A stretch of DNA of 64,000 bases from an uncultured Oscillospiraceae bacterium (GTDB lineage Bacteria; Bacillota; Clostridia; Oscillospirales; Oscillospiraceae), in the NCBI GenBank assembly GCA_944385405.1, contig CALWXB010000005.1:20288-84287 (forward strand). Direction: 5' to 3'. Shown here one piece after another: positions 20,061-39,989 of this stretch. The notes below the pieces were generated by a model. That model made no database searches, was not told where the DNA came from, and was given only the letters and a program-made list of their open reading frames with translations. The position numbers were made by a program, and so were the translations under genes. How positions within the stretch are numbered: the stretch's first letter is position 1; each line of letters begins with the position of its first letter.

Positions 20061-20933
20061 TCAAAGCCCTCCCGGAAGCATTTTTTTCGCAAAAATCTCA
20101 CAAAAGCTCTTTTCCGTCAGCCGCACCAGCTTCATCACATGCTTGCTCCGCCGGACCTGCACCTTGTCGTCGGCCCGCAGGGAGAACGCCCGGCTCTCAT
20201 CCACGCACAGATACACCGGCTTGCGGCCGTTGCGTTCCAGCTCCACCGTCAGCACATGCTCCGGCGAGAGGACATAGGAGGAAAAGCGCATGTTGTGGGT
20301 GCAGATGGGACAGACGATCATGGTCTGCGCCACCGGCTCCACCACCGGACCGCCGGCAGACAGGGAGTACGCCGTGGAGCCAGTGGGTGTGGAGACGATG
20401 ACACCGTCGCCCGCGATGTCCGCCAGATGGCGGCCGTCAGAGGATATCTTCAGATGGATCACATGGGAGATAGGGCCTTCACGGATCACCGCATCATTTA
20501 GTCCGAGGTTCGTGTAAACCTGTTTTCCTTCACGGATTACCGAGACATCCAGCATCATGCGCTGCTCCGTTTTGAAGTCCCAGTCCCGCAGTTTGCGCAG
20601 TGCCTCCAGCTCTCCGGCCTCCAGCTCCGCGATGAAGCCCAGGCCGCCCATGTTGATACCCAGCACGGGGATCTTGTTCAAGGCCGCCAGCTTGGCAAGA
20701 TGCAGGATCGTGCCGTCGCCGCCGAAGGTGATGAGCAGGTCCGCGCCCCGCAGTTCCTGAGGCAGCGGGCGGACGTCAAAATCGGCAAAGGCCCCGGACT
20801 TTTGGTCCTTGAAGGGAGAACACACCACGGTGCGGAATCCCAGCTCCCGCAAAATGGCGTCTGCGGCCCGGGTGGCCTGCATCCCCTGGTCCCGGTTGGG
20901 ATTGGGGCAGAGAATGATCTTTTTTCCGCTCAC
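20061..20933 (-). CDS. nadK: NAD kinase
   Basis: 290 aa; phosphorylates NAD to NADP. The GGDGT motif (residues ~70-74), NMGGLGF and TPTGSTAYSLSAGGP are present. The start is GTG 20933, overlapping the tlyA stop in GTGA. It is in the OLE-dxs operon. Confidence 0.97.
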   Translation of the reverse strand: MSGKKIILCPNPNRDQGMQATRAADAILRELGFRTVVCSPFKDQKSGAFADFDVRPLPQELRGADLLITFGGDGTILHLAKLAALNKIPVLGINMGGLGFIAELEAGELEALRKLRDWDFKTEQRMMLDVSVIREGKQVYTNLGLNDAVIREGPISHVIHLKISSDGRHLADIAGDGVIVSTPTGSTAYSLSAGGPVVEPVAQTMIVCPICTHNMRFSSYVLSPEHVLTVELERNGRKPVYLCVDESRAFSLRADDKVQVRRSKHVMKLVRLTEKSFCEIFAKKMLPGGL

Positions 20934-21754
20934 ACGCCGCTCTCCTCTCCATGCTCCCGCAGCTCCCGATGGGATTCCTCCACCAGTCCCCGCAGGTCGA
21001 AGGTGCCGGCTGCGCCGGCCTCCGTTTTTTCCAGATATCCCAGGTACTCAATATTCCCCTCAGGTCCGCGTACCGGGGAATATGTAAGCCCAAGGACTGT
21101 AAAGTTTGATTCCTTTGCATGCTCCAGAAAATGCTCCAACACCTCCAGATGCACGGCGGGGTCTCGGACCACGCCCTTTTTCCCCACCTTTTCTTTCCCG
21201 GCCTCAAACTGCGGCTTCACCAGGCAGGCCACGTGGCCGCCTGGCTTCAAAAGGCCCCACACGGCGGGCAAAATCAGCTTCAGGGAGATAAAGCTGACGT
21301 CAATGGAGGCAAAATCCAGCTCCTGGGGGATCTGCTCATGGGTGAGGTAACGGGCATTGGTGCGTTCCATGCACACCACCCGCGGATCGCTGCGCAGGCT
21401 CCAGGCCAGTTGGCCGTAGCCCACGTCCACGGCATAGACCTTCCCTGCGCCGTTTTGCAGCATGCAGTCGGTAAAACCGCCGGTGGAGGCGCCGATATCG
21501 GCGCAGACGGCGCCCTCCAGCTGGATGGGAAATGTTGCCATGGCCTTTTCCAGCTTCAGTCCGCCGCGGCTGACGTATTTCAAAGCATTGCCCCGCACCT
21601 CGACCTCGGCGTCCTCCGCCACGGCAGTGCCGGGCTTGTCCACCCGCTGACCCTTGACAAACACCAATCCGCTCATGATGGTAGCCTGGGCCTTCTGGCG
21701 GCTCTCCTGGAGACCCCGCTCCACCAGCAGCACATCCAATCTCTTTTTAGCCAT
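20930..21754 (-). CDS. tlyA: TlyA-family rRNA 2'-O-methyltransferase
   Basis: 274 aa. N-terminal S4 RNA-binding domain (~5-65) followed by an FtsJ-like methyltransferase with ADIGASTGGFTDCML as the SAM site and KPQFEAG near residue 187. Members methylate rRNA ribose or act as hemolysin-like proteins; rRNA methylation is the better-supported role. ATG 21754 overlaps the dxs end by 8 nt. Confidence 0.93.
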   Translation of the reverse strand: MAKKRLDVLLVERGLQESRQKAQATIMSGLVFVKGQRVDKPGTAVAEDAEVEVRGNALKYVSRGGLKLEKAMATFPIQLEGAVCADIGASTGGFTDCMLQNGAGKVYAVDVGYGQLAWSLRSDPRVVCMERTNARYLTHEQIPQELDFASIDVSFISLKLILPAVWGLLKPGGHVACLVKPQFEAGKEKVGKKGVVRDPAVHLEVLEHFLEHAKESNFTVLGLTYSPVRGPEGNIEYLGYLEKTEAGAAGTFDLRGLVEESHRELREHGEESGV

Positions 21755-23603
21755 CCTGCATCGCCTCCCGCACCGCTGCCGCAACAGCGGCGCCGTCCAA
21801 TCCAAAGCAGTGTTCCAACTGGGAAACACTGCCCTCCGGGGCAAAGGTTTTGCCCAAGTTCTTTAAAATCAGCTTCTGCGGAGCAAGCCCTGCTTCCGCC
21901 AGGATCGCAGCGATCCGCTGGCCCACACAGCCGGCACCAAAGGAGTCCTCCAGTACCAGCAGCCGCCGCGTTCTTCCGATGGCCTCACATACCGGAGGAT
22001 GTTCCAGCGGCGAGATCCGATTGAGCTTTACAATACCGGCCCGGATCCCCTCTTGTGCCAACAGCTCCGACGCCTCCAGCAGATGGTTCACCATAATGCC
22101 GTAGCCCACTAGAGTAACGTCCTCGCCCTGCCGCAGTCGAACGAAGGGAGCATCCGCCGTATCCTCCCGGAAACGGCCCTCCCCGCCCCGGGGATACCGC
22201 ACCGCCACAGGCCCGTCCAGCTCAAAGATCGCCTGGCGCAGCATATGCCGCAGTTCGGCGAAGGAGGAAGGACACAACACCGTATATCCCGGGATCTCCG
22301 AGAGAAACAGCGCGTCAAAACAACCGTGGTGGGTCTCGCCGTCGGCGCCCACCAACCCGGCCCGGTCCACGCCCAGCACCACATGGAGCCGCTCCAGCGC
22401 CACATCGTGGATCAGCTGGTCATAGCCCCGCTGCAGGAAGGTGGAATAGACGCCGAACACCGGGATCATTCCCTGAGCCGCCAGACCGGCCGCCATGGAC
22501 ACACCGTGTCCCTCCGCAATGGCCACGTCGAAAAACCGCTCCGGAAATTCCCGAGCAAAGCCGCTCAGCCCTGTTCCGTCGGCCATGGCGGCGGTGATGG
22601 CACATACCCGTCCGTCCTCTGCTGCACAGGCAGAGAGGGTCTTTCCGAATACCGCGGAGAAGTTCTCTCCTCCCTGAGTACGTACGATGCCGGTAACAGG
22701 GTCGAAGGGACCGATACCGTGGAACTTCCCGGGGTCTTTCTCTGCAAAGGAATACCCCTTGCCCTTGATGGTATTCACATGGACTACCACCGGCCGGTTC
22801 AGCTCCCGTGCCCACTGCAGCACATCGCACAGCCGAGGCAGATCGTGGCCGTCGATTGGCCCCAGGTAGGTAAAACCCATATCCTCAAACAGCGTGCTCC
22901 CGGGCCACAGGGTCTTTTTTAAGGAGGACTTGAGCCAGTGATTGAACCGATACAGCGCATTGTCCGTGGGATGCTTGCCAAACAGGCTGCGGTACCACTT
23001 CTTAAAATGATAATAAGCCGGCTTGGAGCGCAGGCGGTTCAGATGAGAGGGCATTGCTCCTACATTTGGGTTGATGGACATGCCGTTGTCGTTCAGAATC
23101 ACGATCAGCGGCTCACCGGAGGCTCCGGCGTTGTTCAGTCCCTCATAGGCCAATCCGCCGGTAAGGGCGCCATCGCCGATGAGGGCCAGCACGCTGTAAT
23201 CCTGGTGGAGCAGCGTCCTGGCCCTGGCCATGCCCAGGGCCACCGAGACGGAATTGGAGGCGTGTCCCGCGATAAAAGCGTCGTGGATGCTCTCATACGG
23301 CTTGGGAAAGCCGGATAAGCCCCCCAACTGCCGCAGGGTCGGAAACGCCTCCTGCCGCCCGGTGAGGATCTTATGGACGTAGCACTGATGTCCCACGTCG
23401 AACACCAGCCGATCCCGGCTGGTGTCAAACACCCGGTGGATTGCGACCGTCAGTTCCACAGCTCCCAGGTTGGATGCCAGATGTCCGCCGGTCTCCGCCA
23501 CATGCTCCACCAAAAAAGAGCGGATCTCATCACACAGCTGCGGCAAGGCGCTGCGGTCCAGGGCCTTGACATCACTCGGGGAATGGATCGATTCCAGAAT
23601 CAA
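21747..23603 (-). CDS. dxs: 1-deoxy-D-xylulose-5-phosphate synthase
   Basis: 618-aa thiamine-diphosphate enzyme that condenses pyruvate and glyceraldehyde 3-phosphate, the first step of the MEP isoprenoid pathway. GHQCYVHKILTGR, GDGALTGGLAYE (Mg/ThDP site) and the C-terminal transketolase domain are present. The start is TTG 23603, 8 nt after GGGAGG. It directly follows the OapA-like gene, as dxs does in the OLE loci of Bacillus halodurans. Confidence 0.97.
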   Translation of the reverse strand: MILESIHSPSDVKALDRSALPQLCDEIRSFLVEHVAETGGHLASNLGAVELTVAIHRVFDTSRDRLVFDVGHQCYVHKILTGRQEAFPTLRQLGGLSGFPKPYESIHDAFIAGHASNSVSVALGMARARTLLHQDYSVLALIGDGALTGGLAYEGLNNAGASGEPLIVILNDNGMSINPNVGAMPSHLNRLRSKPAYYHFKKWYRSLFGKHPTDNALYRFNHWLKSSLKKTLWPGSTLFEDMGFTYLGPIDGHDLPRLCDVLQWARELNRPVVVHVNTIKGKGYSFAEKDPGKFHGIGPFDPVTGIVRTQGGENFSAVFGKTLSACAAEDGRVCAITAAMADGTGLSGFAREFPERFFDVAIAEGHGVSMAAGLAAQGMIPVFGVYSTFLQRGYDQLIHDVALERLHVVLGVDRAGLVGADGETHHGCFDALFLSEIPGYTVLCPSSFAELRHMLRQAIFELDGPVAVRYPRGGEGRFREDTADAPFVRLRQGEDVTLVGYGIMVNHLLEASELLAQEGIRAGIVKLNRISPLEHPPVCEAIGRTRRLLVLEDSFGAGCVGQRIAAILAEAGLAPQKLILKNLGKTFAPEGSVSQLEHCFGLDGAAVAAAVREAMQDG

Positions 23604-23618
23604 GCCAAACGCCTCCCA

Positions 23619-24176
23619 TCAACGGTGAAACACATGTAAAAACCGCCCCGCCAGATAGACCACTTTCGTGCTCTGCTTCATGGCAAAAGTCTTGGAAAGG
23701 GCCTTTCCTCCAATGGTCAGGCCGGAAATCAGCGCTGTAATACCGACTGAGATCAAAACCGTCCGTGTGTTGAAGGCCTGCTGCAGCTGGGCAACGATGA
23801 CTGCGCCGGTGGCACCGCTGACGATGCCGCAGATATCGCCTACCACGTCATTGCAGACGCTGGAGACCCGGGAGGCATTGCGCAGCAAGGCCAAAGCCTC
23901 CTTTGCTCCCTTCTCCTTGTGTGCGGCCATGGAGTGAAAGGGCCGGGCATCCGCCGCCGTTACCGCCACGCCGATCACATCAAAAATGATGCCCAATCCG
24001 ATGAACATGGCCAGAATCAAAACGGCGACCGCCGTGCCCGCGCCGTCGAGCATCGACTCCGACGCAAGACTCAACGCCGCAGACAATGCGACCGCCATGC
24101 AAAAGACCGTCAAGGCCCAGCGGTACTGGGCGCTGGCACCGTTCTTTTTCTCCTTGGTGCGTTTTTCTCGTTTCAA
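23619..24176 (-). CDS. oapA: OapA-like membrane protein (OLE RNA-associated protein A)
   Basis: About 185 aa. A very basic N-terminus (KREKRTKEKKNG) is followed by hydrophobic segments at ~20-45, 48-75, 112-135 and 140-160; the end GGKALSKTFAMKQSTKVVYL resembles the GEVTPK..A region of CNNM/DUF21 exporters. OapA in known OLE loci is a small membrane protein of this kind, lying between the ole RNA gene and dxs, exactly the order here. It binds OLE RNA and anchors it to the membrane. Two TTGs are possible; 24176 has proper spacing (9 nt) from GGGAGG. Identification rests on topology and position. Confidence 0.78.
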   Translation of the reverse strand: MKREKRTKEKKNGASAQYRWALTVFCMAVALSAALSLASESMLDGAGTAVAVLILAMFIGLGIIFDVIGVAVTAADARPFHSMAAHKEKGAKEALALLRNASRVSSVCNDVVGDICGIVSGATGAVIVAQLQQAFNTRTVLISVGITALISGLTIGGKALSKTFAMKQSTKVVYLAGRFLHVFHR

Positions 24177-24213
24177 ATATGACAACCTCCCAAATGGGAA
24201 ATACAGACAGATT

Positions 24214-24873
24214 CGCTAAGCAAGCGGCAGCAAAAAAGGTAAATCTTACGGCTTAGGTACGGGTTGGTTTTCCCCGCGGCGCACCTCTCGTTGCCGATGG
24301 AGGCGGTTCCCCCTTCGGCGCCGCGGCGCGGCGTTGCCAGTCCGCGCTACCCGATTGCCACTTAGTCCGCACTGCAATCCCTTTTCTGCCTCGCAAGAAC
24401 AGCCTAGGTGATTTCCACCGCAGTCTGTCCGCTTCTTTAGCCTCTTTTGCAGGCATGGTTTCAAAGAGCAGGGGGCCGCCGAGCTCCGGCCGGGAGCGAT
24501 GACGGCCTGACCTCCCATCCACCATACCCACGCAAGGCAGGCTACAGCTGCACACAGCGTTACGACTCAGCAACGGAGCCGATGCACCGCATTGCAGGTT
24601 CACAATCTGCTTCGTACACAGGCCGGAAATACCGCGATGGGAGTACGTCTGTGCACAAGAACAGGTCTCCACGGAAACAGGGTCGGGTTGACCATGCCAT
24701 TGGAAATCGCCCTGAGTCCGCAAGCACGCGCAGCGCGCTTCCCCCCAGCACCCACCCAAAACTGGGCGTATCAAGCAGGCACCAGAGGTTTCATCGATGT
24801 GCCCTTCAGAGGATTTTTAGGCCCTCCCTAGGAAGCGGAAGATCTGACTAGAATACTGCGCCGCCGCTTAGCA
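24214..24873 (-). ncRNA. ole: OLE RNA (ornate large extremophilic RNA)
   Basis: About 660 nt with no credible coding frame but with its own promoter (24880-24908). It lies directly upstream of the oapA-like gene and dxs, the conserved locus of OLE RNA, whose usual size is ~600 nt. The ends pair: GCTAAGC at 24866-24872 (5') with GCTTAGC at 24215-24221 (3'), continued by GGCGGC against GCTGCC, giving a closing stem. Inside are many GC-rich complementary arms. OLE RNA forms a membrane ribonucleoprotein with OapA that is linked to Mg2+ and stress tolerance. No covariance search could be run; the case is synteny, size, lack of coding and closing stem. Confidence 0.82.
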
Positions 24874-24879
24874 AGGCAT

Positions 24880-24908
24880 AGTATACCACGTCCTTGATAA
24901 ATATACAA
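24880..24908 (-). promoter_or_regulatory. Promoter of OLE RNA
   Basis: TTGTAT, 17-nt spacer, TATACT on the minus strand, about 7 nt before the predicted 5' end. The -35 is one arm of a perfect palindrome. Confidence 0.75.
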
Positions 24909-24926
24909 TATTCATTGTATATACAA
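24901..24926. repeat. Operator-like palindrome over the OLE -35 element
   Basis: Arms ATATACAAT (24901-24909) and ATTGTATAT (24914-24922) are perfect reverse complements around ATTC. A second perfect 12-bp palindrome TTGTATATACAA (24915-24926) overlaps it, giving three copies of the TTGTAT/ATACAA unit. Confidence 0.7.
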
Positions 24927-25086: not shown

Positions 25087-26316
25087 ATGACAAGCGACGC
25101 CATAGGCAAACTACTGCTCATCGTCTTTTTCCTCCTTTGTTCCGCCTATTTCTCTGCCACGGAAACGGCCTTTTCCTCGCTCAGCCGCACCCGCGTCCAG
25201 ATGATGGCCGATCACGGAAGCCGCGGAGCCAAGCTGGCGCTGAAGCTCTCCGAGCGGTATGACGATCTGCTCTCCACCATTCTGGTGGGAAACAACATCG
25301 TCAACATCGCCATCGCGTCTATCGGTACGATCCTCTTTGTCCGCCGATTCGGCGAAGATCTGGGGTCTTCCCTTTCCACAGTGGTGGTCACAGTGGTGGT
25401 GCTCTTCTGCGGAGAAGTCACACCCAAGAGCATGGCAAAGGAGGCTCCGGAAAAGGTGGCCATTGCCTCCGCCCCGCTTCTGCGGCTTTTGATGACGATC
25501 CTCCTTCCGGTGACCTGGATCTTTGCCAAGTGGAAAGCGCTGCTGGCCCGGATCCTGGTGGTGCAGGATGACCGCAAGCTGACCCAGGAGGAGCTTTTGA
25601 TCCTGGTGGATGAAGTGGAGCGGGACGGCGGCATCGACAGTCAGGAACGGGAGCTGGTACGCAACGCCATCGAATTCAATGACCTCACCGCCGAGGACGT
25701 CCTCACTCCCCGGGTCTCCGTGGTAGGCGTTCCCGTTGAGGCAGACCGGGCAGAGGCGGCGGAAGTATTTGCCAGCAGCGGTTACACACGCCTGCCCGTC
25801 TACAAGGGCACGATCGACTGCATCGTCGGCGTCTTACATCTGAAAGATCTCTATGCGCCGGAAAACAAGGGGCTTTCCGTCAGCAGCCTGGTCAAGCCTG
25901 TGCTGAGCGTGGCCCCTGTCTCTCCCATCGGAACACTGCTGCGCCAGCTCCAGCGCACCAAAAATCACATGGCCGTGGTGGCTGATGAGCACGGCGGCAC
26001 ACTGGGCATCGTCACCATGGAGGACATCCTGGAAGAGCTGGTGGGCGAGATCTGGGATGAACATGACGAGGTGCTGGAACCCATCCGGGCGCTGGGGGAA
26101 AACCGCTATCAGCTGGCGGGTGATCTGGCCCCCCAGAAGGCCTTCAGCCTCTTTGGCATCCGGGAGGAGACAGACGCCCCTACCCTGAGCAGCTGGATGA
26201 TGGACGGACTGGAACGCATCCCCGCAAAGGGCGATCAGTTCTCTTGTCAGGATGTGACTTTCACAGTGGAGGAAACAGAACTGAACCGGGTCACCCGTAT
26301 TTTGGCGGAAAAATAA
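25087..26316 (+). CDS. CNNM/CorC-family ion exporter with CBS pair (Mg2+ export type)
   Basis: 409 aa. N-terminal DUF21/CNNM membrane domain (~1-185, three to four helices, with FCGEVTPKSMAKEAPEK), two CBS domains (~205-325; LTPRVSVVGVPV, MAVVADEHGGTLGIVTMEDILEELVG) and a C-terminal CorC/HlyC domain. Relatives such as MpfA and CorC protect against high Mg2+ or Co2+. ATG 25087 is chosen; the longer frame lacks a signal. The gene is divergent from OLE-oapA, which itself codes for a CNNM-like protein, so a shared role in Mg2+ balance is plausible. Confidence 0.9.
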   Translation: MTSDAIGKLLLIVFFLLCSAYFSATETAFSSLSRTRVQMMADHGSRGAKLALKLSERYDDLLSTILVGNNIVNIAIASIGTILFVRRFGEDLGSSLSTVVVTVVVLFCGEVTPKSMAKEAPEKVAIASAPLLRLLMTILLPVTWIFAKWKALLARILVVQDDRKLTQEELLILVDEVERDGGIDSQERELVRNAIEFNDLTAEDVLTPRVSVVGVPVEADRAEAAEVFASSGYTRLPVYKGTIDCIVGVLHLKDLYAPENKGLSVSSLVKPVLSVAPVSPIGTLLRQLQRTKNHMAVVADEHGGTLGIVTMEDILEELVGEIWDEHDEVLEPIRALGENRYQLAGDLAPQKAFSLFGIREETDAPTLSSWMMDGLERIPAKGDQFSCQDVTFTVEETELNRVTRILAEK

Positions 26317-38660: not shown

Positions 38661-39989
38661 TCATGCTTGCCGCCGCATGCGGCAGATGTAAAAGCCGTCG
38701 GTGTGATGCCGCTGTGGCCAGAGGGTCACATCCCCCTCCGTCCGTCCCACCGGCTCCGGCAGTGCAAACGGTTCCATGGAAAATGCCGGATGTTCCGCCA
38801 GGAACGCCGTGCAGACCTGCTCGTTCTCCTCCGGCAGGACCGTACAGGTGGAGTACACCAAAAGGCCGCCGGGCCGTACATAGGAGGCGGCATTTTCCAG
38901 GATGGCGGTCTGCGTCACCGGCAGCATGGCCAGTGCGTCCGGATTTTTGTAGCGGGTATCCGGCTTTTTGCGGATGATGCCCAGCCCCGAGCAGGGAGCA
39001 TCCACCAGCACCGCATCAAAGGCTTCCGCCCACTCCGGATGGAACGTGCGGCCATCGGCGGCCTGTGTCTGAATGCAGGAAAGCCCCAGCCGCCGGGCGC
39101 CCTCCTGAATCCGGGAGAGCTTGTTGGCATGCAGGTCGCAGGAGAGGATCTCTCCCCGGTCCTCCATGGCGAAGGCGGCGGAAAAGGACTTTCCGCCCGG
39201 CGCCGCGCACACATCCAGCACCCGCTGTCCCGGCTCCACGCCGGCGGCCAGGGTGACCAGCCGGGCGGCGGGGTCCTGCACCAGGAACTTCCCTTCCTGG
39301 AACTCCGGCAGGGCCGTCAGATCGCCGGTGCCGGAGAGCTCCAGGCATCCGGGCACCCAGGGGTGCGGGGCGGCGGAGATCCCCCGGGCCGTCAGCCCAG
39401 CCGTCAGCGCCTGCGCTGTGGTCCTGGCCGGGTTCACCTGTACCGTCAGCGGCGGGATCTCGTTGTTCTCCCGCAGGAAGGCCTCTGCCTCCTCTCGCCC
39501 CAGCAGCGCCAGCAGACGCTTCACCAGCCACTTGGGATGGCTGTACCGGATGGAGAGGGCTTCCGCCTCCGTCCGCTCCGGGATAGGCGGCAGCTGAGCC
39601 TTGTTCCGGGAGAGCTTCCGGAGCACGGCGTTCACCAGTCCGGCAGCCTGTCCCCGGCCGGACAGCTTTGCAAGCTCCACGGCCTCATTCACTGCGGCGC
39701 TGTCCGGCACTTTTTCCAAAAACAGGATCTGGTAGGCGCCCATCCGCAGAATCTCCGCCAGCGGGGGCTGCAGATGGGAGATCTTCTGCGTACAGAACGC
39801 CCCCAGGTAAAAATCCAGCAGCAGCTGATTCTGCATCACGCCGTAGACGATGCGGCTGCAAAGCGCCGCATCCTGAGGCGAAAGCGCGTCCCGGCTCAGC
39901 TGGGCCTTCCGCGCCGCATCCGCCCAGGCGCCGTTGGTCCGGCAGCTGCGCAGCACCCGCAGCGCAGATCCACGAGCAGGCGTGATCAT
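38661..39989 (-). CDS. rsmB: 16S rRNA (C967-C5) methyltransferase RsmB
   Basis: 442 aa. N-terminal NusB-like domain (~1-135), then a NOL1/NOP2/Sun SAM methyltransferase with VCAAPGGKSFSAAF, DAPCSGLG and the catalytic cysteine in VYSTCTVLPEENE. The start overlaps the yugP stop by one codon (AATGA). Confidence 0.96.
   Translation of the reverse strand: MITPARGSALRVLRSCRTNGAWADAARKAQLSRDALSPQDAALCSRIVYGVMQNQLLLDFYLGAFCTQKISHLQPPLAEILRMGAYQILFLEKVPDSAAVNEAVELAKLSGRGQAAGLVNAVLRKLSRNKAQLPPIPERTEAEALSIRYSHPKWLVKRLLALLGREEAEAFLRENNEIPPLTVQVNPARTTAQALTAGLTARGISAAPHPWVPGCLELSGTGDLTALPEFQEGKFLVQDPAARLVTLAAGVEPGQRVLDVCAAPGGKSFSAAFAMEDRGEILSCDLHANKLSRIQEGARRLGLSCIQTQAADGRTFHPEWAEAFDAVLVDAPCSGLGIIRKKPDTRYKNPDALAMLPVTQTAILENAASYVRPGGLLVYSTCTVLPEENEQVCTAFLAEHPAFSMEPFALPEPVGRTEGDVTLWPQRHHTDGFYICRMRRQA

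Follow-up and report, generated by a model that had tools for sequence, protein, structure and literature searches.

A full-length OLE RNA gene standing head to head with an mpfA-family gene in an uncultured Oscillospiraceae bacterium

Does a stretch of approximately 660 nt, lying between a promoter and an oapA-like gene in the DNA of an uncultured Oscillospiraceae bacterium, specify OLE RNA, and what is to be made of the mpfA-family gene placed head to head with it at a distance of about 0.2 kb? These questions were examined in a window comprising the whole 64,000-nt stretch of DNA analysed here, for which a sequence-only reading had proposed an untranslated, structured OLE RNA. The OLE literature describes a membrane-located OLE-OapA complex in H. 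halodurans that is tied to Mg2+ and other stresses (PMC11332333, PMC12265935, PMC9723947, PMC12286853, PMC10898510, PMC12054373). The same literature reports MpfA as the protein most strongly anticorrelated with OLE.

Scanning the whole window against Rfam (cmscan) returned OLE (RF01071) as the sole match above cut-off, covering the complete model (positions 1-616 of 616) with 390.1 bits (E 4.2e-111; cut-off 50 bits). This copy is the single OLE match in the bacterium's own genome (88% complete), and RF01071 matched none of 14 control genomes. Based on the covariance model, the partner gene and the synteny, it is virtually certain that the structure at this locus is OLE RNA. The overwhelming minus-strand match to the full Rfam model bears out the earlier identification of a structured RNA of about 660 nt as OLE. 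Within the genus, the OLE match reaches about 741-746 nt in four genomes (G003, G009, G019, G027), approximately 75 nt above most others.

The alternative that the region is a protein gene, its GC-rich repeats mimicking structure, would have to rely on a 173-aa minus-strand frame (24253-24774) or a 134-aa plus-strand frame. The 173-aa frame is open in the window and in five of 82 distinct relatives (loci with nearly full OLE only), and a comparable frame of 175 aa occurs in another Oscillospiraceae locus (L004). Against this, substitutions across the 82 relatives fall evenly on codon positions 1, 2 and 3 (2747/2622/2750; a test of the minus-strand frame only) and a stop interrupts the frame in 77 of them, indels counted, which rules out the 173-aa frame as a gene. 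A Pfam search of three overlapping frames gave no match at E 0.1, and the OLE match spans the whole model. We therefore regard the chance of a protein gene at this position as negligible. The substitution pattern indicates that the RNA of about 660 nt is untranslated, as had been supposed, the overlapping frame evolving as noncoding DNA in the relatives.

The promoter upstream (TTGTAT, a 17-nt spacer, TATACT) is conserved in relatives and predicts a transcription start near 24873, the end point given by the sequence-only reading, which had also called the promoter a good one. As the -10 box occupies 24885-24880, the interval 24214-24873, whose limits follow from the closing stem, probably fits the RNA ends better than the limits of the model match do, and the RNA would run from about 24873 to about 24214. 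Its two ends are joined by a covarying terminal stem (24873-24859 with 24230-24214), left unpaired by the Rfam model, which the stem could extend. Among 93 locus rows, pairing was complete (7/7) in 60, 6/7 in 28 and 5/7 in five, with compensatory forms GCTAAGC/GCTTAGC (35 rows), ACTGAAC/GTTCAGT (10) and GCTGAAT/ATTCGGC (one). These counts are generous, since loci with partial OLE or without the anchor motif were excluded, one contig may be represented by several rows, and pairing was scored in the most favourable register. The covariation supports the previously suggested stem between the RNA ends, which together with size and synteny agrees with OLE. Single-sequence folding was modestly more favourable than in shuffles (z -1.9), one of 20 shuffles being equally good, so that folding energy alone is no proof of a structured RNA.

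A simple sigma-70 scan listed two other weak pairs and not the ole promoter, because TTGTAT agrees with TTGACA in just three of six letters. Overlapping the -35 is a two-box element, GTATATAC-N10-GTATAT, present with at most two mismatches in 42 of 79 distinct relatives and with three to six in 37, counts that are inflated by relatedness and by the -35 hexamer lying inside the box. When the same 90-base stretch was letter-shuffled, at most two mismatches were reached in <0.1% of cases. A search of eight genomes with at most one mismatch gave 12 rows, seven of them upstream of ole (all genomes except G050) and five at four other places, compared to two matches for a reversed control pattern; the box is thus enriched at ole and not unique to it. 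On the same counts its use as the operator of a wide regulon was rejected. Being equally present in loci without mpfA, the box belongs to ole and did not arise for mpfA. We consider it a candidate operator for a regulator that has yet to be named, and as such a handle on what turns OLE on; it may resemble GntR/HutC operators. No named regulator of ole was found in the portion of the open-licence OLE literature covered. Coordinates of all features are collected in Table 1.

Table 1 Features of the ole locus, with positions in the window, strand and basis of assignment
Feature	Position	Strand	Basis
mpfA-family gene diverging from ole, with CNNM, CorC_HlyC and two stretches of CBS	25087..26316	+	Pfam, PDB
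Two-box candidate operator (GTATATAC-N10-GTATAT), which overlaps the ole -35 box	24901..24924	-	Conservation in relatives
ole promoter (-35 TTGTAT 24908-24903, 17-nt spacer, -10 TATACT 24885-24880)	24880..24908	-	Sequence, conserved in relatives
OLE RNA gene, full-length	24208..24880	-	cmscan, noncoding substitutions, compensatory changes in the closing stem
oapA, OLE-associated membrane protein A (start uncertain, TTG 24185 or 24176)	23619..24185	-	CNNM below cut-off, DVVGD, model
dxs, directly after oapA	21747..23603	-	Pfam DXP synthase
tlyA-like S4/FtsJ methyltransferase gene	20930..21844	-	Pfam

Downstream of OLE the order is oapA-dxs-tlyA-nadK-argR-recN, in agreement with the earlier assignment of an oapA-like gene and its followers (ORFs and Pfam; nadK and recN were recognised from ORF reading and not by family search). 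The Pfam CNNM match of OapA scores 24.2 bits, under the cut-off of 28.4, and a profile search against PDB sequences found no CNNM. The DxxxD motif, described for OapA in the OLE literature, reads DVVGD and is invariant across 34 aligned sequences of 37 first chosen. A moderately confident predicted model (mean pLDDT 75.9) was compared to the PDB using Foldseek, and the six best matches were all CNNM/CorB/CorC transmembrane domains with a probability of 1.00 and weak E-values (0.037-0.33, none <0.001). The model thus suggests a CNNM-like fold, repeating the CNNM likeness published for the H. halodurans protein (Fernando and Breaker 2024, PMC11332333). In one other locus (L045, 4205-10501), approximately 5 kb holding a 751-aa frame and an opposite-strand 897-aa frame part OLE from oapA, a break in a usually tight pair.

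An L7Ae (OapC-type) match was detected in 19 of 20 OLE genomes tested, some matches being weak or containing a stop, and the sole exception is the bacterium's own genome. Not every L7Ae protein is OapC. A KOW search for OapB recovered just NusG- and L24-sized frames or matches that are too weak; a KOW match of about 109-149 aa was seen in four other genomes and is absent from the own genome. With this KOW match missing too and an assembly completeness of 88%, a gap in the assembly is likely to account for the absent L7Ae. In a published survey, OapB occurs in about 60% of OLE genomes and OapC in about 45% (PMC11332333).

The closest public loci belong to Oscillospiraceae, Oscillibacter and Dysosmobacter, several of them from animal guts according to their titles. 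Of 61 genus genomes sampled, the own one among them, 54 carry OLE (30 of the 31 good ones), as do 71 of 250 from the family and 284 of 398 from the phylum, under stricter filters by which some weak OLE matches were lost. A GTDB survey reports 2,822 OLE hits in Bacillota and OLE in the uncultured gut clades TANB77 and RF39 (PMC11332333). Given this wide occurrence in genus, family, phylum and published gut clades, a gut copy is not new, and the suggestion that a gut commensal would provide a useful new context for OLE is not supported. No text naming both "OLE RNA" and "Oscillibacter" was found among open-licence main texts, which says little given that scope. The published anticorrelation is repeated in the family, with a strong mpfA match (E < 1e-20) in 16 of 71 OLE-positive versus 166 of 179 OLE-negative genomes (Fisher p 3e-28, the genomes' relatedness being ignored); two further OLE-positive genomes have weak matches only.

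The unusual point of the locus is its mpfA-family neighbour, which makes this a new OLE copy in an interesting context. The product of this gene matches PF01595 (169.5 bits), PF00571 (55.9 bits, two stretches) and PF03471 (42.4 bits), all above cut-off, as well as CorB in the PDB (7m1t, E 1.9e-54), and is predicted to be a magnesium-exporter-like MpfA-family protein. An orthologue survey of the 61 genus genomes gave matches to it in 17. In four of these (G000, G032, G013 and G044) the match is an orthologue of 76-100% identity, and in all four it faces ole head to head; the contig that holds mpfA in G032 starts inside ole, and L002, the G032 contig among the OapA loci, ends at ole. The other 13 carry homologues of 28-51% identity that are not beside ole: three genomes have no OLE match (G004, G021, G059), nine have mpfA and ole on separate contigs, and in G038 the two are approximately 2 Mb apart. 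Of 80 OapA loci compared, one (L003) includes mpfA. Independent ole-mpfA linkages were sought in 80 other OLE genomes taken among the listed matches of the 284 OLE-positive phylum genomes; none has mpfA beside ole, and 40 have some MpfA match. A strong match shares a contig with ole in six of the 80, at a distance of at least 380 kb, and G519 has a weak CBS-only match approximately 6.5 kb from ole. Not counting the own genome, 15 OLE-positive members of the family have strong mpfA, seven of which are among the matches listed, with none of the seven beside ole. No mention of an ole-mpfA linkage was found in the parts of the OLE literature covered.

In G044 (locus L003) and G013, mpfA lies inverted between ispA and ole, and L004-like relatives show the canonical order xseA-ispA-ole-oapA-dxs with ispA directly before ole. 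No ispA or xseA match was found in the window, although a nusB-like match (39600-39893, minus strand, 30% identical) is present. Unrelated frames of up to 1,627 aa, some secreted-looking, occupy the ispA-ole interval in L007 (4343-9159), L081 (3314-9169) and L020 (7387-9059), so this interval seems to take insertions repeatedly.

It is likely that mpfA adjoins ole by chance, through a single neutral insertion at a permissive site that carries no regulatory or functional meaning; this would be compatible with the OLE identity of the RNA. Such an origin accords with the other occupants of the ispA-ole interval, with the confinement of the arrangement to one clade (4/61 genus genomes, 0/80 elsewhere) and with an ole promoter box equally present in relatives that lack mpfA. 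The adjacency looks like one insertion event and therefore may mean nothing. Three observations pull the other way: what was inserted encodes the protein-only counterpart proposed for OLE-OapA, the two genes have stayed linked during the divergence of MpfA to 76% identity, and the window retains mpfA although the ispA and xseA matches are gone. A bolder reading, in which the OLE RNP and MpfA form one divergent metal-homeostasis module, balanced via the shared upstream region with GTATATAC-N10-GTATAT as the operator of an OLE regulator, we consider improbable. Another account, in which OLE is present here while decaying since MpfA now does its work, would draw on the proximity of the two genes, on their anticorrelation in the family and on a score of 390 bits that is lower than many in the phylum (up to 582.9). 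The window match is full-length, however, the ole promoter and oapA are conserved, and the OLE scores beside mpfA (387.7 in G013, 400 in G044 and 390.1 here) fall within the 323-411 of full-length genus OLE without an adjacent mpfA, making decay a very unlikely explanation.

The reading that we prefer, and regard as highly probable, is that a full-length OLE RNA gene is transcribed leftward from a promoter of its own, with oapA and dxs behind it. By analogy with H. halodurans and cryo-EM work, OLE RNA would dimerise and bind OapA, a membrane protein of CNNM-like fold, most likely forming the membrane complex, and this RNP may aid the cell under divalent-metal and other stresses, doing with the help of an RNA what the MpfA/CorC Mg2+ exporters do; for this Mg2+/stress mechanism as such, drawn from the analogy, we put the chances at about even. 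Counting against the reading are the missing L7Ae match in the own genome, a KOW search that pointed to no OapB, and the OapA fold, whose structural matches have weak E-values and for which the profile search found no CNNM. In this lineage an mpfA-family gene has come in, in reverse, between ispA and ole, leaving a short shared upstream stretch, and the cell keeps both devices, each probably expressed from its own promoter. The leading published idea is that OLE and OapA do part of the work of MpfA-family exporters, and genomes with ole and mpfA head to head provide a natural test of redundant versus alternative versus cooperating roles.

Compared to the OLE loci of H. halodurans and C. acetobutylicum, the window shares the full-length match, an oapA with the DxxxD motif and dxs-tlyA-argR-recN downstream, and a GGCC is kept at the Rfam position that we infer to be the L9.3 dimer loop of known OLE. 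Its OLE is longer (about 660 nt versus 577 nt in C. acetobutylicum) through insertions visible in the model alignment, and mpfA, not ispA, adjoins ole. Other full-length Oscillospiraceae OLE loci, such as L004, have the same promoter box and the same order of OLE, oapA and dxs, but in L004 ispA is located upstream of ole and mpfA is absent, unlike in the window. With the MpfA, CorB and CorC exporters the window gene shares the CNNM, CBS and CorC_HlyC domains and the match to 7m1t. Elsewhere, genomes with OLE usually lack mpfA or have it at an unlinked place, whereas in the window the two genes stand head to head.
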